In this document: piece by piece, positions 6,094-56,146 of the stretch
How positions within the stretch are numbered: position 1 is the first letter of the stretch
Layout of the letters: every line of letters starts with the position of its first letter
Virus record (IMG/VR): IMGVR_UViG_3300035670_000255
Coordinates: 1 to 56,702 of that record
Strand: one strand, 5' to 3'
Length of the DNA stretch: 56,702 nt
Source: a virus
Position numbers and translations under genes: made by a program
Notes under the pieces: model-generated
What the model saw: the letters and a program-made list of their open reading frames with translations, nothing else
Told to the model about the DNA's origin: nothing
The model's database searches: none

Positions 6094-6390
6094 CTATCGT
6101 CTTGCGTTGCGCTCAGCAAATCCAGCCTTAAAGTCTCTGTCTTCCTCAATACCTCCAGTCTCACGAAGGGTACGCACCATCTCCTCCAGCTTCTGACGCT
6201 CTTGGATTAGCTCCCTAGCGTCAACAGCTGTCTGCTTGATGGATTGGAGTTCGGCCTTGCGAGCCGAGCCATTGATATCTGGGTCAACTGGCTTCTTAAT
6301 CTCCTCAATCATATTGTTGATGGCTATCTCCATAGACTCAAGGAGCCTTTGGGCAGCGTCAACTGTGGTGAACTTAGCCTTTATAGCCAT
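6094..6390 (-). CDS. Small helical protein before terL, possible terminase small subunit
   Basis: 98 residues from ATG 6390; an in-frame TTG at 6396 is less likely. Mostly charged helix with a long stretch around residues 45-85 suggesting a coiled coil. The start overlaps the end of the co-chaperonin gene by 17 bases and the stop is three bases from terL, so the three are translated together. Small terminase subunits usually sit in this place and are short and helical, but no DNA-binding motif is visible, so the role is inferred from position only. Confidence 0.55.
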   Translation of the reverse strand: MAIKAKFTTVDAAQRLLESMEIAINNMIEEIKKPVDPDINGSARKAELQSIKQTAVDARELIQERQKLEEMVRTLRETGGIEEDRDFKAGFAERNARR

Positions 6391-6955
6391 AATCAACAGC
6401 TAGTAAGTGGTCAACATTCATACGCCAAAGCTTTTTGCCGTCAATCTCCATCTCGTAGTCCGCATCTTTAGCGAAATACACGATGTCACCCTTCTTTACC
6501 CCAATCTCAGCCAACGCTTCCGAGTCGCAATGGATGCGTCCGTAGCGGTTTGGCTCTGGGGTAAGGTTAACAAGCTCAAGTATAGAGCTTTTTAGGTGGT
6601 GAGGCTGAGGAATTGGCTCAACAAGTACCCAGTTAGTAAGCACCTGAAGTCCATCTTCGTTTTTAAAGGCGTAGCACTGGGTAGAAAAGCCACCGTCTGG
6701 GTGGTATCTAACCATAAATGTTTCCTTCTCTAGCTGATTTCCTTCGTCCATCGTTACGTGGTGATGAACATAAAGGATATCCCCGACCTTGACAGATGTT
6801 TTGTACTTCAATGGAACAGAAACTACTTCACCATAGGGGATGCGATGCTCAAACTCGTTGAACTTCGTTTCGATGTAGATTTCTACGTCTCCTATCTTTT
6901 TGGTGTCTTGTACTTTCTTGGGGATTTTTATAATGAATTTATCTAGGCAGTCCAT
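6374..6955 (-). CDS. GroES-like co-chaperonin with two tandem domains
   Basis: 193 residues from ATG 6955. The second half reads as a GroES fold: WVLVEPIP, then YGRIH, then GVKKGDIVYFAKDADYEMEI and a terminal VDHLLAV strand, the order seen in bacterial GroES. The first half repeats the pattern: FIIKIPKKVQ, YGEVVSVP, and VKVGDILYVHHHV. Phage co-chaperonins (for example T4 gp31) replace host GroES so that host GroEL can fold the capsid protein. Placement among packaging genes fits a capsid-folding role. What is unusual is two GroES-like modules in one chain; T4 gp31 is about 110 residues. Confidence 0.72.
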   Translation of the reverse strand: MDCLDKFIIKIPKKVQDTKKIGDVEIYIETKFNEFEHRIPYGEVVSVPLKYKTSVKVGDILYVHHHVTMDEGNQLEKETFMVRYHPDGGFSTQCYAFKNEDGLQVLTNWVLVEPIPQPHHLKSSILELVNLTPEPNRYGRIHCDSEALAEIGVKKGDIVYFAKDADYEMEIDGKKLWRMNVDHLLAVDYGYKG

Positions 6956-8405: not shown

Positions 8406-8413
8406 TACTTTTG
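8406..8413 (+). promoter_or_regulatory. -7 element TACTTTTG for rightward gene 8438
   Basis: TACTTTTG 25 bases before the ATG at 8438. A TTG at 8379-8381 is 24 bp upstream, longer than usual, so strength is uncertain. It lies back to back with the leftward -7 element at 8416-8423. Confidence 0.4.
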
Positions 8414-8437: not shown

Positions 8438-8890
8438 ATGGCTAAGCACACGCAAAAGAACAAGGCGCGTATGTTTCGGGAGTCCAGCAGATTACCTGAC
8501 AGCGCAATATCACACGAAGGACTTAAGCACCTCGGAATCACATACCACTACTTCCGTAAAAGGTTTGGGCTTACAATGGGACAGCTACACCTTATGCTGT
8601 TGGTGTACGACCTTGAGTTTTTCACAACCGACTACGCCTGCAAGCAGATGCGTATGTATCGAGGTATGTTCTACAAGAGAAACATCCTTCCACTTATAAA
8701 AGCAGAATACCTATACCATCACTTCCGTCAGACAAGCCCGTCGTTCCATAGTATGGAGGACTTAATGTTCTATGGTGAGACGCGGTTCTCGTACCGTTCT
8801 CGTATGGCGCTTACCCAGAAAGGCAGGATGCTGGTAGCTAGGTTTTACCGAAGTGCTGCTACTGGCGCTTTGCCTGATTTGGATGAGTAG
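8438..8890 (+). CDS. MarR-like winged-helix protein, lone rightward gene
   Basis: 150 residues. A basic N-terminus is followed by LTMGQLHLMLLVYDLEFFT, a segment like the first helices of MarR-type winged helices, then a recognition-helix region (GMFYKRNILPLIKAEYLYHH) and a wing with RMALTQKGRMLVARFYR, the classic xALTxKG ending. This suggests a DNA-binding regulator acting in the host cytoplasm. It is the only rightward gene in the left block and its 3' end overlaps the next leftward gene by 32 bases, tail to tail. A late-gene activator or repressor is possible, but no target is shown. Confidence 0.6.
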   Translation: MAKHTQKNKARMFRESSRLPDSAISHEGLKHLGITYHYFRKRFGLTMGQLHLMLLVYDLEFFTTDYACKQMRMYRGMFYKRNILPLIKAEYLYHHFRQTSPSFHSMEDLMFYGETRFSYRSRMALTQKGRMLVARFYRSAATGALPDLDE

Positions 8891-10482: not shown

Positions 10483-11106
10483 TTAAAAGTAATCGAACTT
10501 AAAGCCTTTAGTTGATGATTGATTGCCCTTAAGTACAGTCGTCACAGTTGATTTTGATATACCAATAGCGTCTGCTGCCTCTTTTGCTGTTGCCCAAATG
10601 AATATTACATTGCCGTCCATATCCATTTGAACTACAGCTCTAGACCTAGGGTTGTTGTATCCAGACACATCTCCTAACCAAGTAGTTGGGTTAATTTTAT
10701 GAGCCTCACTCATCTTACGACGAGTTTCTTCTGATGGTATTCTGCCAATAGACTTTGCTCGTATCTTTTCTACAATATCCGCATAATTAGGTAGGTCTGT
10801 AATCTTTGGAGGCTTGTCTCCGCCTTTACTAGTATTGACTAACTTCTTTCCTTTAGATAAAGCTAAAGAGATTAACTCAACCTCTTTTTCATAGCACTCT
10901 GTTTCAGTTCCCTGAAAAATAATCCTGTGCCTAAAGTCAAAGTCAATCTTACGAAGCCATCGAGACTTGCGTAGGTTATATGATTTATTCTTCTTGTTTG
11001 TTGCTTCGTGTACGTGATTCTTCAACCTTTGCTCTGGTTCAATAGATACTCCAATGTATCTAATTCCAGTAGCGTCAGCTAATACGTAGACAAAACAATT
11101 ACCCAT
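10483..11106 (-). CDS. GIY-YIG homing endonuclease with NUMOD3 and NUMOD1 segments
   Basis: 207 residues from ATG 11106, chosen because the nuclease core begins right after it (CFVYVLADATGIRYIGVS, giving VYV and YIG). A NUMOD3-like helix follows (SEETRRKMSEAHK), then a C-terminal NUMOD1-like segment with VVQMDMDGNVIFIW, AADAIGIS and KGFKFDYF. The start overlaps the end of the endolysin gene by eight bases, suggesting insertion just behind it. Likely selfish; the target would be expected in or near the adjacent gene in related phages. Confidence 0.85.
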   Translation of the reverse strand: MGNCFVYVLADATGIRYIGVSIEPEQRLKNHVHEATNKKNKSYNLRKSRWLRKIDFDFRHRIIFQGTETECYEKEVELISLALSKGKKLVNTSKGGDKPPKITDLPNYADIVEKIRAKSIGRIPSEETRRKMSEAHKINPTTWLGDVSGYNNPRSRAVVQMDMDGNVIFIWATAKEAADAIGISKSTVTTVLKGNQSSTKGFKFDYF

Positions 11107-11593
11107 AAATCTCCTTGAACTTGGCTGCGGTGTACGGAATGTACTTGGCCTTACCTCCAGTAAAAACAGCAATCAGAATCTGTTTACGGTTTGTTCCTTT
11201 ACGATAACCGACGTGCACCCAGTTCATATCGCCAGCTCCGTTAGAACCCTCAGCGATGAGTTGGTCAAACTCCAAGTTGTCTTTAATAAAGTTGAATACA
11301 TCCTTGTTCTTTACACCATTACCGTGACCATCTTGGTCTAGGTCAAGAGCCTTTCCGTTGTTATGGTCAGAGGTAGCACTACCACCAATCGCCTTGTTTA
11401 AGGCAGCAGAGCGGTACCCAGATGAAATGTAAATAGGCACACCAAAGTGTTCACGCACCTTGTCAAACACTTCCTCACAGATAGTCTTAAGGTTCTCGAG
11501 GTGCTCAGCAGTTGGAGAGTTGTCAATACCCTTGCGCTTGGCAGTATCACTACGAGTTACTTCAGCCAGCGACACATACTTAGATAGTTTCAT
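11099..11593 (-). CDS. Endolysin, M15-family zinc D-Ala-D-Ala peptidase
   Basis: 164 residues from ATG 11593. It cuts peptide cross-links of host peptidoglycan at lysis. Zinc site: SGYRS at 58-62, SDHNNGKALDLD with H77 and D84, and WVHVGY with H127, the His/Asp/His set of M15A peptidases. No signal peptide or membrane segment, so it needs the holin to reach the wall. It is the first gene of the leftward block, just behind the control region, with a -7 element at 11623-11616. Confidence 0.9.
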   Translation of the reverse strand: MKLSKYVSLAEVTRSDTAKRKGIDNSPTAEHLENLKTICEEVFDKVREHFGVPIYISSGYRSAALNKAIGGSATSDHNNGKALDLDQDGHGNGVKNKDVFNFIKDNLEFDQLIAEGSNGAGDMNWVHVGYRKGTNRKQILIAVFTGGKAKYIPYTAAKFKEIYG

Positions 11594-11615
11594 AATCGTC
11601 TACGTTTTAGAGTTA

Positions 11616-11623
11616 CAAAAATA
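11616..11623 (-). promoter_or_regulatory. -7 element TATTTTTG upstream of endolysin
   Basis: TATTTTTG on the minus strand, 22 bases before ATG 11593. No -33 TTG at normal distance. Probable start of leftward transcription out of the control region. Confidence 0.4.
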
Positions 11624-11690
11624 ATCAATTCTGTTTTACCCCCTTATTGGTCATTAACAATGAAATGTTGAATACTCATACTCCAAACTA

Positions 11691-11721
11691 TTGAAAGTAT
11701 CATTTTTCTCTTGTAACTTTG
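11691..11721 (+). promoter_or_regulatory. Bacteroidetes-type promoter for candidate RNA
   Basis: TTG at 11691-11693, exactly 20 bp, then TAACTTTG at 11714-11721. This is a close match to the Bacteroidetes primary-sigma promoter. No protein gene follows for 1 kb, so the transcript is probably a non-coding RNA or a long leader. Confidence 0.7.
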
Positions 11722-11728
11722 CCGCTAA

Positions 11729-11939
11729 AGGTCCTAGCGCTAGCACAACCAACAGAACACTAAAGCTGACGGGCGGGCCTCCCACCCCGCCAAGTCAGCA
11801 GCTACACAACAGCTAGCAAGTGAGCTTTGACCAGTAACACCTGCCAAGGGTCAAAGCGAACGCGTCATAATAGGATAGACTTGTGCTGGCACGAAGACTA
11901 TTCTAGCTGTTCATCTTCTTCTCACCTCTCTTTTTTTTG
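11729..11939 (+). ncRNA. Candidate structured non-coding RNA
   Basis: No open frame starts here, but the promoter at 11691-11721 would transcribe it. The sequence folds by eye into a closed multi-branch shape. A 10-bp outer stem pairs 11739-11748 with 11881-11890, including one G-U pair. Inside are a GC-rich hairpin 11765-11799 (GCTGAC with GTCAGC, GGCGGG with CCCGCC) and a 9-bp hairpin 11824-11832 with 11849-11857. Eight T residues at 11931-11938 could end it. It matches no tmRNA, 6S, RNase P or tRNA feature that I can see. It could instead be structured origin DNA. Confidence 0.42.
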
Positions 11940-11943
11940 CAAC

Positions 11944-12111
11944 GTGCTCTATTTCACATAGTTGTCTACGTTTCTTTTTTAGGTAAACTTAGCTGTCACT
12001 CCCCCAACGAGAGAGAATAACAGCACATTTACAAATCTACACAACCTAACGCAGCCAACTTCCTAGACAACATCCAACACACCAGAACACATCCAACACT
12101 AAATAGAGCAC
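11944..12111 (+). repeat. 11-bp inverted repeat enclosing a C/A-rich, G-poor stretch
   Basis: GTGCTCTATTT at 11944-11954 is perfectly complementary to AAATAGAGCAC at 12101-12111. The enclosed ~145 bases are rich in C and A with little G and hold no gene. It could close a second RNA domain, or mark an unwinding or priming region of an origin. Confidence 0.4.
12070..12099 (+). repeat. Two direct copies of ACATCCAACAC
   Basis: Copies at 12070-12080 and 12089-12099, 19 bp start to start, inside the C/A-rich part of the control region. Function unknown. Confidence 0.45.
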
Positions 12112-12137
12112 TCAACAATGTTCAGCTAGCACACGTC

Positions 12138-12561
12138 ATAGCCAGAAACTATCAGTCGCAAGTGCACACTGATAAAAGGAACCACCAGATATAAGTATGG
12201 GCGGGATTATATATACTATACAACGAATCGACAACCAAACCGAAACGAAATCACAGACCCAAGCCCCCTACACGTACACGAAATTCTCAGAACATTCCAG
12301 CGTTTTACTACCTACTCCTACCCATAGATTCTAACTATTAAGTAGCCCCTTGGTCATAGTTTTTTCCTATCAAGTACCTAGTTAGCGATAGGAAATAACT
12401 ATCGGTGAGAAGTTCTCTCTGATGTAAGTGCTTGATAATCAGGGAGAACAATCCCACTCTAAAATCCCCTCATAGCCAAAACCTATCAACAACTACCAAA
12501 ACCACGCGCCTACGAGACAGCCATCATAGCCAAATCCTATCGGTCGATAGTCAAAACCTAT
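12138..12561 (+). repeat. Seven ATAG-N7-CTAT sites, candidate operators or iterons
   Basis: Identical-spacing partial palindromes start at 12138, 12324, 12356, 12388, 12472, 12526 and 12547, each 15 bp. The best copies (12388, 12547) extend to CGATAG-N7-CTATCG. The centre is often CCAAAAC, CCAAATC or TCAAAAC. Start-to-start distances among the last six are 32, 32, 84, 54 and 21 bp, close to whole helical turns, so bound dimers would lie on one face of the DNA. There is no open frame here. Either a repressor/activator array for the early promoter at 12710 or replication iterons would fit. Confidence 0.65.
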
Positions 12562-12603
12562 CGGGGTCGGAGTTATATTCGCGCCTCTACGTGTGGGTAT
12601 GAC

Positions 12604-12631
12604 GCGCAGGTGACGGGCAGGTAGCGCAGGT
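12604..12631 (+). repeat. Three GC-rich direct repeats, G(C/G)GCAGGT
   Basis: GCGCAGGT at 12604-12611, GGGCAGGT at 12615-12622 and GCGCAGGT at 12624-12631, in a short GC-rich patch between the ATAG sites and the palindrome. It contrasts with the AT-rich palindrome right after it. Function unknown; a protein-binding site is possible. Confidence 0.4.
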
Positions 12632-12643
12632 AGGCGCCGCGCG

Positions 12644-12717
12644 ATAGTCAATAGTAATTCTAAACGAAATTTATTTGTTTCTCAAATAAATTTCTTAAGA
12701 ATTATTCTATTGACTAT
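12644..12717 (+). repeat. 74-bp imperfect palindrome beside early promoter
   Basis: Left arm 12644-12677 and right arm 12683-12717 are nearly complementary around a 5-base loop (12678-12682). Both outer ends carry ATAGTCAATAG and both inner ends AAATTTATTTG; two small gaps separate these blocks. The right arm contains the TTG (-33) of the promoter at 12710-12742, so a protein bound here or DNA extrusion would affect it. It could also act as an origin stem-loop. Confidence 0.65.
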
Positions 12718-12742
12718 TTCCTACGAGAAAGTCGTACTTTTG
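12710..12742 (+). promoter_or_regulatory. First early promoter
   Basis: TTG 12710-12712, 22-bp spacer, TACTTTTG 12735-12742, then ATG at 12772. The spacer is two bases longer than at other early promoters. It overlaps the large palindrome, suggesting regulation. It would drive 12772 and the amidoligase cassette. Confidence 0.6.
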
Positions 12743-12771
12743 CCTCGAATCCCACCAAAAATCGTGTTCCG

Positions 12772-13056
12772 ATGGCTAAAGTAAAAAGAAATACTAACTC
12801 TACCTATACTCACGTTAGTAGTCCAAAGATTAGTAGTGTATATCAGGAGAATATATACTATACTCATAAGTTCACTAAGTTCAAAACTAAGTTTCGTACT
12901 AAGTGCTTTGAGACAGGTTCTATACTTGATGCAGGTACTTTTGTTGCCTTTGATACTTTGAGTCGCAAAGTATTTTCTCTTAATAGTTCTACTTATGCTT
13001 ACTACTTGACCTCTATTAGTCGGTCATTTAATGGTCTTAATTGGTCAAGAGTATAA
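12772..13056 (+). CDS. First early gene, hypothetical 94-residue protein
   Basis: Basic, rich in S, T, Y, F and K (MAKVKRNTNSTYTHVSS at the start); about four short strands are predicted. No family recognised. Position right behind the first early promoter suggests expression immediately after entry, as with host-takeover or regulatory proteins, but that is inference. Codons are T-ending and AT-rich, like the next gene and unlike most later genes. Confidence 0.6.
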   Translation: MAKVKRNTNSTYTHVSSPKISSVYQENIYYTHKFTKFKTKFRTKCFETGSILDAGTFVAFDTLSRKVFSLNSSTYAYYLTSISRSFNGLNWSRV

Positions 13057-13129: not shown

Positions 13130-14269
13130 ATGGATAATCTTGTAACCTTGTCTTGTGGTCGTGAAGTAGATGCTTCTGATGCTGTTGAGATTACTTATGG
13201 CTTCCGTCGTGGTACTCTGATTCACGTAGATGACTCTATCTCTACTATTGATGGTGAAGTAGTTCACTCTGATGATGCTTACTATTGTGATGGAGATGGT
13301 GAATACTATGCAGATAGTTCCGACTTAGTTTACGTTAGTGAGGGTAGTTATGATGGCTACTATTTGTCTGATGATGTAGTTTACGCTGAAGATTGTAATG
13401 ACTACTACCACATTGGAGACATTGGTCATTATGTGTTCCAACATTCAGATGGTTGTTACTATACTGAAGAAGAACGTACTGAGCGTTGTCATTCCTACCA
13501 TAGTGGCTATCGTCCTATGTTGACTACTGAAGATACCAAGTTTACTGTGGGCTTCGAGGTAGAGAAAGAAGATGAAGAAGTCCTTGATAATTGGGAATTA
13601 GATGACGTAGACGACACTAAGTGGTCTCGTGAAGAAGATGGTTCCCTTGATGGTTCCTCAGGTTTTGAATTGGTAAGTCCTACCTACGACCTTATGACTG
13701 ATGACTTAGACAATGCTGTTGCTACTGATATTCTCAGTGCTCATATCAATGCTAAGTATTCTGATAATTGTGGTGGTCATATCAACTTTGGTATCAAAGG
13801 TTTGGATGGTCAAGAGGTCTACGATAAGGTAAAAGGGTTTGTTCCTGTGCTGTTGTCGCTGTACCAATCTCGACTACGTAGTCGTTGGTGCCCTGCTAAG
13901 AAGTCCTACGATAATAGTAAGTATAGTGCTGTTGCTATCAAGAGTTCCTACATTGAGTTTCGTGCTCCTTCTGCTGTTATTTCGGTAACTAACTTACTAT
14001 GGCGTAGGGACTTGCTTCGTATTATGGCTTCTAACCTTGACAAGGGTACGCTGTTCTTTATCCGTGAGATGTTGACTCCTACGAGTGCCCTACATAAGCA
14101 CTTGCTCAAGGTGGTGAGTGCTCCTACTATCTACCGACGTGCCGCATTTGCTGCTGCGTTGGCTGAGAAAATGACAGGTACCGACTACGCTAAGTACGTT
14201 AGTGTTGAGGGTTTCGGTAGTGCTGTGGAAGATATGAAATCCCGTGCCGAATCTATGATTCGTGAGTAA
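13130..14269 (+). CDS. Amidoligase (COOH-NH2 ligase) family protein 1
   Basis: 379 residues. Residues 136-280 show the ordered motifs of the Amidoligase_2 family, ATP-dependent enzymes with a glutamine-synthetase-like fold that form amide bonds: GFEVEKE (141-147), REEDGSL (167-173), ELVSP (180-184), CGGHINFG (214-221) and YIEFRAP (274-280). The glutamates and histidine are the expected ATP/metal ligands. Residues 10-125 are acidic, aromatic-rich imperfect repeats (for example YCDGDGEYYADSSDLVYVS) with several Cys and His, perhaps a substrate or peptide-binding region. The C-terminal half shares TNLLWRRDLLRI with the paralogue at 15440. Next to a class II amidotransferase that could supply ammonia. 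Substrate unknown. Ends before a terminator-like hairpin. Confidence 0.82.
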   Translation: MDNLVTLSCGREVDASDAVEITYGFRRGTLIHVDDSISTIDGEVVHSDDAYYCDGDGEYYADSSDLVYVSEGSYDGYYLSDDVVYAEDCNDYYHIGDIGHYVFQHSDGCYYTEEERTERCHSYHSGYRPMLTTEDTKFTVGFEVEKEDEEVLDNWELDDVDDTKWSREEDGSLDGSSGFELVSPTYDLMTDDLDNAVATDILSAHINAKYSDNCGGHINFGIKGLDGQEVYDKVKGFVPVLLSLYQSRLRSRWCPAKKSYDNSKYSAVAIKSSYIEFRAPSAVISVTNLLWRRDLLRIMASNLDKGTLFFIREMLTPTSALHKHLLKVVSAPTIYRRAAFAAALAEKMTGTDYAKYVSVEGFGSAVEDMKSRAESMIRE

Positions 14270-15439: not shown

Positions 15440-16942
15440 ATGGAATTTATCGATGTAAATGTTCGTGCTTGGTTCAATCTCCACAATGGGTTCCGTGGTT
15501 ACGCTATGGATGAGCCGTACCTAACTACCTACAACGGATTGCTACACAACCACCTGCGTGACATAGAGTATGGCCGTGCTGACAGCGACGTGTTCAGCAT
15601 TCTATTTACAGGTACATCCTACGGACTTAATGGCGAGATGCGTACTGAAATCAACAACTCTTGGGGCAATCAAGGCAACCAAGAGGGGCGTGTCTACGGA
15701 TTCAACGACAGCGATGACCAAAATGGTGGCCGTGTTTCTCTTAGCAATAACTATAATGGCCGCGACCTTATGGCTCCGTGGCAGGCATTGTCTGAGACCT
15801 ACGGCAAACCAGTGGTGTTTTGGTTTGACAATTCGTGGTCTCCTACTGGTACTTGGGCAGGTATACGCCACGATGCCCCGCGTTCTACGTGGGAAGCATT
15901 CAACCTTGCTGTGTACGATGCCAACCGACAGAGTAGGGGTGAGGCATACAAGTACATCGCCGACAACCTCTCATTATTAATGGATGGTATTGAGTTATCT
16001 AAGCCTGATGTTGAGGCTTGGTTTAGCACCTACGAGGAGCGCGAGGCACAGCGACTACGTGAGGAGCGTGAGCGCCGCGCTATTGCGCGTATCGAGAACG
16101 CTCCCTATGTTGCTGACTACCACGAAGGTGCACGGCACGGAGAGCAACGACCTTCCTACGTGGGTAAGGATACGCTGTTCTCTGTTGGCTTCGAGGTTGA
16201 GAAGGAGGACTATGATGTCAAGACTTCAATCAACAACGTCAAGTTCAATATGGCTACGGGTTGGGATAAGGAGCGCGATGGTTCCTTGAACGATGACGGC
16301 TATGAGATTGTGTCTCCTACGTACGACCTGTACGACGACAGACTTGACCAAGACCTGAAGATTGATATTCTTCGTGAGCATATTGACGGCGACTACTCCA
16401 AGCGTTGCGGTGGACACATCCACTTGGGTGCTGTGGGTATGACTGGCCGTACGTTCTTCGACCGCTTTGCTCCGTGGTTGCCTCTTATGTACGCTGTCTA
16501 CGTTGGCCGCATCAATGGCGAACACTGCAAGGTTAAGAAGAACGATGACCTTAAGTTCTCGTCCGACAAGTATCAATCTGTCCGTTTGTTTGACAACCGC
16601 ATTGAACTGCGTATCCCTTCTGCTGTGTCTGACACTACTAACTTGCTGTGGCGGCGTGACTTGCTCCGCATTATCTGCGACAACCTTGATGCTACTCCCC
16701 TACGTATCGTGAGTATGCTTACAGACAAGCGTAGTCGCCTCTACAAGCATATGTCTAAGGTGTATGATGCTAAGCGTATGCAAGAGAAACTACAACTCTA
16801 TGTGTACTTCGCCAATGAAATCCTTGACGATGCCTACACTATGATACCTGAGCGTATCCCTACGTGGGAGAAGATGTTCAACAAATCTCAAATCTCTCAC
16901 CTTCGTAACCACGGCTTCCGCCAGAAGTCTTTAACTATCTAA
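15440..16942 (+). CDS. Amidoligase (COOH-NH2 ligase) family protein 2
   Basis: 500 residues. Amidoligase motifs in order: GFEVEKE (250-256), KERDGSL (277-283), EIVSP (289-293), CGGHIHLG (323-330) and IELRIPS (388-394), then the shared TNLLWRRDLLRI. Clearly a paralogue of the gene at 13130, but the N-terminal 1-240 is different: an unrecognised globular region rich in W, Y and N, then a charged helix around 198-220 (EEREAQRLREERERR). The two ligases may therefore see different substrates or partners while sharing one amidotransferase. It uses more C/G-ending codons than amidoligase 1, so the two copies have separate recent histories. Confidence 0.82.
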   Translation: MEFIDVNVRAWFNLHNGFRGYAMDEPYLTTYNGLLHNHLRDIEYGRADSDVFSILFTGTSYGLNGEMRTEINNSWGNQGNQEGRVYGFNDSDDQNGGRVSLSNNYNGRDLMAPWQALSETYGKPVVFWFDNSWSPTGTWAGIRHDAPRSTWEAFNLAVYDANRQSRGEAYKYIADNLSLLMDGIELSKPDVEAWFSTYEEREAQRLREERERRAIARIENAPYVADYHEGARHGEQRPSYVGKDTLFSVGFEVEKEDYDVKTSINNVKFNMATGWDKERDGSLNDDGYEIVSPTYDLYDDRLDQDLKIDILREHIDGDYSKRCGGHIHLGAVGMTGRTFFDRFAPWLPLMYAVYVGRINGEHCKVKKNDDLKFSSDKYQSVRLFDNRIELRIPSAVSDTTNLLWRRDLLRIICDNLDATPLRIVSMLTDKRSRLYKHMSKVYDAKRMQEKLQLYVYFANEILDDAYTMIPERIPTWEKMFNKSQISHLRNHGFRQKSLTI

Positions 16943-19107: not shown

Positions 19108-19312
19108 GGCGGAAATTGCTGTTCTCCCTCACGATATGGACTACAGCGTTGGTATGAAGCGCATCGACTACGTTCTTGAGCGTGGTGAGCGTATTGGCGT
19201 GATTGACAATGCTGTTGTCTACGCTACAAAGAGGTATAGCCTTGCGCTATTCGATGAGAATGCTTTTCTCTACGACAAGTACAACTTAGTCCTACATAGC
19301 ATCACTCTGTAA
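19064..19312 (+). CDS. Hypothetical protein, 82 residues
   Basis: Overlaps the preceding coiled-coil gene by 44 bases and the next gene by one base (TAATG). Alternating strands (RIDYVLERGERIGVID, AVVYATKRYSLALF) suggest a small beta domain. No family recognised. Confidence 0.5.
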   Translation: MNNPLSTLPIAKSAKAEIAVLPHDMDYSVGMKRIDYVLERGERIGVIDNAVVYATKRYSLALFDENAFLYDKYNLVLHSITL

Positions 19313-23889: not shown

Positions 23890-23904
23890 AACTTCAACCT
23901 ATAG

Positions 23905-23964
23905 GTATACCCTATCGTGTATAAATTATACCTAAAACTATATATGTATACCCTATCGTGTATA
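23905..23964 (+). repeat. Two identical 19-bp operator-like repeats
   Basis: GTATACCCTATCGTGTATA occurs at 23905-23923 and again at 23946-23964, 41 bp apart, about four helical turns. Each copy is a TATAC-N8-GTATA half-palindrome. They sit in the 155-bp gap before the 24045 gene, where the only promoter-like element is a poor TAACATTG at 24031. Likely binding sites for a phage regulator or activator. Confidence 0.6.
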
Positions 23965-25667: not shown

Positions 25668-25745
25668 ATGGATACGTTAATTCTATCCCTTTTATTTATA
25701 GTGATGGCAATCATCGCCATCAAAACAACACCTAAAAACAAATGA
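25668..25745 (+). CDS. 25-residue membrane micropeptide
   Basis: ATG 25668 three bases after the tRNA, TGA at 25745 overlapping the next start (ATGA). Mostly one hydrophobic segment (LILSLLFIVMAIIAI) with a basic tail. Location directly behind the tRNA may give it an efficient leader after tRNA processing. Expression unproven. Confidence 0.4.
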   Translation: MDTLILSLLFIVMAIIAIKTTPKNK

Positions 25746-55711: not shown

Positions 55712-56146
55712 TTATAGTGAGTGTTGGTTCACGTTACCGACAAACTCAACGCCTATTGGTAGCTTGTGCTTTGCTCTCATATTGCGTAAGCGCTTTGTGG
55801 TAATACCTAATACATCAACAGCTTCAGATTGGCAGTAGAACATTCCGTTAATCTTGTAGAAGACATTACGAGATGTGTTCCTAGCCTGCTGATAGTTTGA
55901 TGCCCAGCGACAGTTGTCTTTGCTGTATCCCTTGTCGTTGTTTATTCGGTCAAGGGACATACCTTCTGGACGCTCACCCATATCCTCAAGGAACAGCTCA
56001 AAAGAATCCCAACGTGGGTCGTAGGATATACCTTTGTTGTAGTAGCTGTCAACACGATTGCAGGTCGTAGACTTGCATCTCTCACGCATCTTAAGCCAAC
56101 TCTTATAGATTGGAGTTTTTCTCGCTGAGTGTCCGTGTGACTTCAT
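55712..56146 (-). CDS. HNH homing endonuclease with C-terminal DNA-binding segment
   Basis: 144 residues from ATG 56146, two bases after the tail appendage stop. Core pattern of a common HNH homing family: YKSWLKMRERCKS, GISYDPRWDSFELFLEDMGE, SLDRINNDKGYSKDNCRWAS (aspartate-arginine and Asn ligands), then QARNTSRN. The end carries NGMFYCQSEAVDVLGITTKR, a helix-turn-helix-like segment that reads DNA. Third homing endonuclease of the window, and the second next to the tail appendage gene. Probably selfish. Confidence 0.85.
   Translation of the reverse strand: MKSHGHSARKTPIYKSWLKMRERCKSTTCNRVDSYYNKGISYDPRWDSFELFLEDMGERPEGMSLDRINNDKGYSKDNCRWASNYQQARNTSRNVFYKINGMFYCQSEAVDVLGITTKRLRNMRAKHKLPIGVEFVGNVNQHSL

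Follow-up and report, generated by a model that had tools for sequence, protein, structure and literature searches.

The DNA analysed here (hereafter the window) is the whole virus record IMGVR_UViG_3300035670_000255, 56,702 bases long, the ends of which are not closed. It derives from a tailed phage whose host group is Bacteroidetes bacteria; judged by the terminase, its closest relatives with a name are MW202828 (48%) and the Elemovirus phages of Flavobacterium (41%). Terminase relatives were found in 489 viral contigs, and a direct DNA comparison of the window with the phage collection returned no similarity. The genes fall into two blocks, specifically, a leftward block starting at 11593 that carries the late genes, including the endolysin and head genes, and a rightward block from 12772 that carries the early and replication genes. 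The 1.2 kb between 11593 and 12772 form the one junction at which these blocks diverge and contain no ORF of at least 60 aa. One gene breaks the pattern: a lone rightward gene within the leftward block (8438-8890, plus strand) encodes a predicted MarR-fold winged-helix protein of 150 aa, which we propose below as the reader of an array of sites in the junction. The first early gene (12772-13056, plus strand) encodes a protein of 94 aa that has matches in five viral contigs and a low-confidence structure model. In the rightward block, the proteins at 13130-14269 and 15440-16942 are mutually related (42% over about 210 residues), and the latter weakly resembles amidoligases. HNH or homing endonuclease genes occur among the late genes at 659-1444, 10483-11172, and 55712-56146; none of these three had a match in the array-bearing relatives compared.

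Within the junction, seven copies of the 15-bp palindrome ATAG-N7-CTAT lie at 12138-12152, 12324-12338, 12356-12370, 12388-12402, 12472-12486, 12526-12540, and 12547-12561 (sites 1 to 7), giving successive spacings of 186, 32, 32, 84, 54, and 21 bp. The preliminary description of this DNA had reported seven such sites in non-coding DNA, with the last five of these distances near whole helical turns and with two copies extended to CGATAG-N7-CTATCG. Our window count and ORF map confirm the sites and their spacings and place the two extended copies at 12388 (site 4) and 12547 (site 7). Across both strands of the 56,702 bases, the pattern occurs nine times, against 0.77 expected and a maximum of four in 100 shuffles, and only two copies, at 19236 and 23901, fall outside 12138-12561. 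For 11594-12771, the seven sites compare with a mean of 0.02 and a maximum of two in 2000 dinucleotide shuffles. The enrichment is confined to the exact class, as copies with one mismatch are present in the window at the expected frequency (23 versus 23.2). Further, when gap lengths from 0 to 20 were counted in five control regions, a gap of 7 alone was repeated (7, 6, 4, 5, and 5 sites).

Twenty-seven distinct sites yielded a symmetric 19-bp consensus, Y-N-ATAG-N2-W-N-W-N2-CTAT-N-R, with A/T beside the centre. Differences amounted to 0/136 in the arms versus 44/119 in the spacers, a count biased by the fact that pattern-keeping copies alone were entered. Scored with a matrix derived from four other phages, the seven sites and the copy at 23901 took the eight top ranks of the window. 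The latter (23901-23915) is a possible second operator between early genes, with a full match to the pattern and a near copy at 23942; it was found in the window phage only. Within 23901-23956, a 24-bp repeat is present in two near-identical copies spaced 41 bp apart, one being the full array-type site. In the main array, multiples of 10.5 bp describe the last five spacings well (p about 0.0005 by simulation, in a post hoc test that omitted the 186-bp spacing). The 186-bp spacing is off phase at 17.7 turns; the equivalent distance in one relative (G001) is 189 bp, or 18.0 turns. With several like sites held in helical phase within a control region, the locus shows one of the hallmarks of a phage cooperative operator array.

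Four other lineages carry the array with matching spacings: G001 (IMGVR 3300044641_000450), G004 (3300035438_000328), G002 (3300043443_000177), and G003 (3300035670_000639) together with its near twin G005 (3300034073_000899). A further record, 3300036770_001097, is apparently the same phage as the window. Across lineages, the spacings are 21, 53 or 54, 84, and either 31, 32 or 54 bp, again near whole 10.5-bp turns, and in the stretches between sites, aligned gaps leave the distances almost unchanged while the spacers drift. All exact sites lie inside the control region in G003 (5/5) and G004 (4/4). In all lineages, the distance from site 5 to its neighbour on the left is exactly 84 bp, and site 6 follows 53 or 54 bp past site 5. 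Site 7, two turns (21 bp) past site 6, is lost in G004; site 4 is retained in G004, G003, G005, and G002 and absent in G001, where the distance is shorter by one 32-bp unit; site 3 is present in G001 and G004 and lost in G003; and site 2 is present in G001, G003, G005, and G002 and degenerate in G004. The off-phase site 1 is an outlier, kept in the window lineage and G001 only. No site cluster was seen in the cultured relative elemoF (a 49.8-kb stretch) or in the metagenome-derived MW202828 (46.9 kb). Overall, the pattern is scarce in the rest of the genome and conserved among relatives, contrary to the two outcomes that the preliminary description had named as grounds for discarding it.

Several other elements share the junction with the array. 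An AT-rich inverted repeat at 12643-12718 is predicted to form 33 pairs in its consensus (ATAGTCAATAG...CTATTGACTAT; z -7.2), of which, among five sequences that include two near twins in this stretch, 30 are invariant, three vary by compensatory change, and none is broken. It overlaps the -33 element of a predicted early promoter of the Bacteroidetes sigma-A type (12710-12742, plus strand; TTG-N22-TACTTTTG). A similar promoter, TTG-N22-TAnnTTTG, is found at the early-promoter position in six of the eight phage control regions scanned, and TAnnTTTG is the flavobacterial sigma-A -7 consensus given in the published account (PMC9723704). A strict search of the minus strand of the control regions returned no leftward promoter. 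Measured from the early -33 element, the array sits 150-390 bp upstream. About 150 bp separate it from the nearest predicted promoter, which is downstream, and the distance from the last intact site to the hairpin varies from 96 to 135 bp. We rejected the hairpin as a terminator, given that no T run follows it on either strand, and a search of genome contigs with the hairpin word found no match. In G007, a relative that lacks the array, the matching place is taken by an AT-rich hairpin whose sequence is unrelated.

At the left end of the junction, a predicted promoter of a leader or small RNA (11691-11721, plus strand; TTG-N20-TAACTTTG) precedes a possible structured non-coding RNA (11722-11938, plus strand; z -2.6) that ends in an eight-T run at 11931-11938. 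A comparison of 11722-11938 with Rfam gave no family above chance; structured stretches also occur at the place of 11691-11938 in relatives. Finally, two core elements, at 12200-12308 (GGGATTATATA ... CCGAAACGAAATC ... CAGCGTTTT) and, inside the 84-bp interval, at 12442-12455 (GGGAGAACAATCCC), are recognisable, more or less completely, in 11 aligned phages with or without the ATAG array, mostly without it. These could possibly represent an origin, a late promoter, or a packaging signal. Because they are shared with mostly array-less phages, the array itself is a lineage-bound addition.

The preliminary description had offered two phage proteins as potential readers of the sites, the winged-helix protein at 8438 and a DnaA-like protein at 25742, and the evidence gathered here points to the first. 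The AlphaFold model of the 8438 protein, predicted as a monomer (pLDDT 76, with the wing tip below 50), displays a MarR winged-helix fold with a C-terminal helix. MarR regulators make up most of its best 50 Foldseek matches (E 5.5e-4 and weaker), and VIA-align ranks the MepR-DNA complex first (Z 12.7, 2.7 A over 96 residues). A Pfam scan of the window protein gave no match, and one of 31 homologues weakly matches MarR_2 (E 0.044). The symmetric 19-bp site consensus fits a MarR-type pseudopalindrome of about 20 bp. The gene has its own -7 box, TACTTTTG, at 8406-8413, which is conserved in array phages, and no match to the protein was found in the phage collection, Elemovirus included.

Further, the protein varies with the sites. 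The helix MYRGMFYKR occurs in all seven records with sites (the window and 3300036770 being one phage) and in none of 23 array-less contigs after de-duplication. This comparison left out seven contigs with partly covered control regions (L014, L015, L023, L025, L038, L042, and L079), of which L014 and L015 carry the array-type helix, and retained L086, whose stretch is 40 bases under the limit yet has six visible sites. Overall identity to the 8438 protein is 70-95% in array phages versus 30-43% in array-less phages, the widest gap among 11 late-block genes, with no such gap for TerL and endolysin. At residues 72-81, array phages are 90-100% identical, compared with 30% for G007 and a mean of 6% for the others. 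Among the window proteins scanned, which represent part of the ORFs, no other member of a DNA-binding family tracks the array; the first early protein, the structure model of which is poor (pLDDT 46.5), may still be a candidate reader. Early genes and several late genes also track the array in these lineages, however, and since the array lineages share so much else, the correlation with 8438 may rest on one event and does not amount to independent observations.

Evidence from outside this set of relatives came from scanning viral contigs for two sites placed 21 bp apart (60 stretches) or 84 bp apart (36 stretches), which revealed 85 new loci, 12 of them with at least three sites within 600 bp. 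One, G020, recovered through a 21-bp pair, is a distant member of the window phage's family (TerL 46%). Of its 13 sites, 10 fall in the divergent region, where 0.09 were expected. Its remote homologue of 8438, oriented as in the window phage (hhalign 96.3%; whole-record profile search, E 2e-8), lies in the leftward block beside chaperonin genes and has a recognition helix unlike that of 8438 though the core half-site is the same. Whole-record searches with the 8438 profile covered seven of the 12 clusters and detected a homologue in G020 and none in the other six; hence, the motif alone fails to identify the reader. Arrays of the same palindrome with no detected 8438 homologue include those at L265 2101-2230, L285 5376-5505, and L222 4784-5381, on contigs of 42.9, 42.2, and 170.7 kb, respectively.

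Array-less clades carry other repeat words in the corresponding region. G007, whose 8438 homologue is 43% identical, has no ATAG-N7-CTAT in 60 kb, and its densest GTTAGA cluster (six in 550 bp) lies in the control region. MepR, the closest structural match of 8438, reads GTTAG according to the portion of the report that describes its operator (PMC3617543). In the matching region of L099 (7950-8750), GTTAAA repeats recur about 11-13 bp apart, and in that of L131 (308-450) there are CTAA-N5-TTAG palindromes. The words of G007 and the L099 group suggest that protein and array change together. A broader scheme, which we put forward only tentatively, is that clades keep the place and the core elements and rewrite the MarR helix and the array word together, with ATAG-N7-CTAT in the window phage, GTTAGA in G007, and GTTAAA in the L099 group. 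Under such co-evolution, the array would wrap the divergent region and, together with the cruciform-like repeat at the early promoter, switch early genes off and late genes on, forming a phi29-like topological switch made from a MarR protein.

Taken together, these observations lead us to propose, with a probability of roughly 60%, that the array serves as a cooperative set of operators for the MarR-fold protein that the phage itself encodes at 8438 and acts as an early/late switch, a reading built on sequence comparison and a predicted structure. Each 15-bp palindrome (19 bp when extended) would take one 8438 homodimer, the two recognition helices of which would insert into successive major grooves, separated by 11 bp. 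The sites lie along one helix face, at whole turns over about 240 bp, so that bound dimers would assemble into a compact nucleoprotein structure, flanked by the late genes, read leftward, and by the early promoter, read rightward, at 12710-12742. In the early phase, 8438 would be transcribed from its own promoter by host RNA polymerase, and the accumulating protein would shut the early promoter and might help to open late transcription, as phi29 p4 does; binding, dimer formation, the direction of regulation, and the timing of the 8438 switch are what we infer. The distance between array and promoter argues against simple blocking by a repressor and for action through DNA shape.

The preliminary description had left the choice between an operator array and replication iterons undecided, and it is the operator reading that gained from the evidence on 8438. 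As iterons, the phased palindromes would be bound by an initiator that melts the adjoining AT-rich hairpin, as lambda O does at its origin, and the locus has features to match: it is the only divergent junction, it holds an AT-rich inverted repeat and an old core element beside the sites, the GC skew changes sign at 12-13 kb of the window, and the phage encodes a protein resembling DnaA domain IV (25742). We nevertheless consider iterons, the main alternative, unlikely. The skew change can be put down just as well to the switch of coding strand, close relatives that have this core element do without the array, and the sites are palindromes spaced at 21-186 bp rather than close direct repeats. 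The DnaA box TTWTNCACA has three matches in the window, none of them in the control region, and the DnaA-like protein is an improbable reader, as it fails to track the array (37-38% identity in the array phage G003 versus 34% in the site-less G007).

A host protein as the reader, either a dimeric regulator or a nucleoid protein, would accommodate the palindrome clusters in other phage contigs with no detected 8438 homologue. It sits poorly with sister phages that have similar TerL and endolysin, and perhaps similar hosts, and lack the sites; we know of no host motif that fits, and regard a host reader as rather improbable. Least probable is that the array is a pac site for the small terminase, for which the small protein encoded beside TerL at 6094-6396 would be the natural candidate. 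Repeats do occur at some pac sites, and the array lies in non-coding DNA, but array-less sisters must package without it. We rejected the 6094-6396 protein as a reader, its similarity being independent of the array (68% in the array-less G011 and 68% in the array phage G002).

The proposed operator array for 8438 can be set beside several known systems. The Elemovirus phages of Flavobacterium (elemo) resemble the window phage in their related terminase (TerL 41%), head genes, and divergent two-block layout, and differ from it in having no site cluster in the elemoF stretch and no 8438 match; to our knowledge, no early/late switch has been described for phages related to them. The iterons of the lambda origin are likewise short palindromes, A-rich at the centre and next to AT-rich DNA, whereas the spacings of the array are wider and unequal, and the array is absent from sister phages; no lambda O homologue was found among the window proteins scanned. 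MarR regulators usually act through one or two sites on a promoter, and a MarR system in which seven phased sites lie far upstream of the promoter is not known to us. The literature listings and abstract openings on phage MarR-like regulators and phased operators describe no such array. In the sections that treat their operators, the MarR proteins MepR and SCO3205 are presented as winged-helix homodimers that bind pseudopalindromes of about 22 bp with their helices in consecutive major grooves (PMC3737563). The MepR word GTTAG (PMC3617543) corresponds to the one enriched in G007. Protein p4 of phi29, as characterized in the pertinent part of the account, offers a close functional parallel, as several inverted repeats between early and late promoters are bound by one phage-encoded dimer that reads them partly through A-tracts; unlike 8438, its fold is described as novel, and its sites are CTTTTT-N15-AAAATG, with two of them overlapping promoter elements (PMC3100819). 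With a named candidate protein, probable sites, and natural paired variants of protein type and site word now available, both recognition by the MarR fold and cooperative action at a distance become directly testable.
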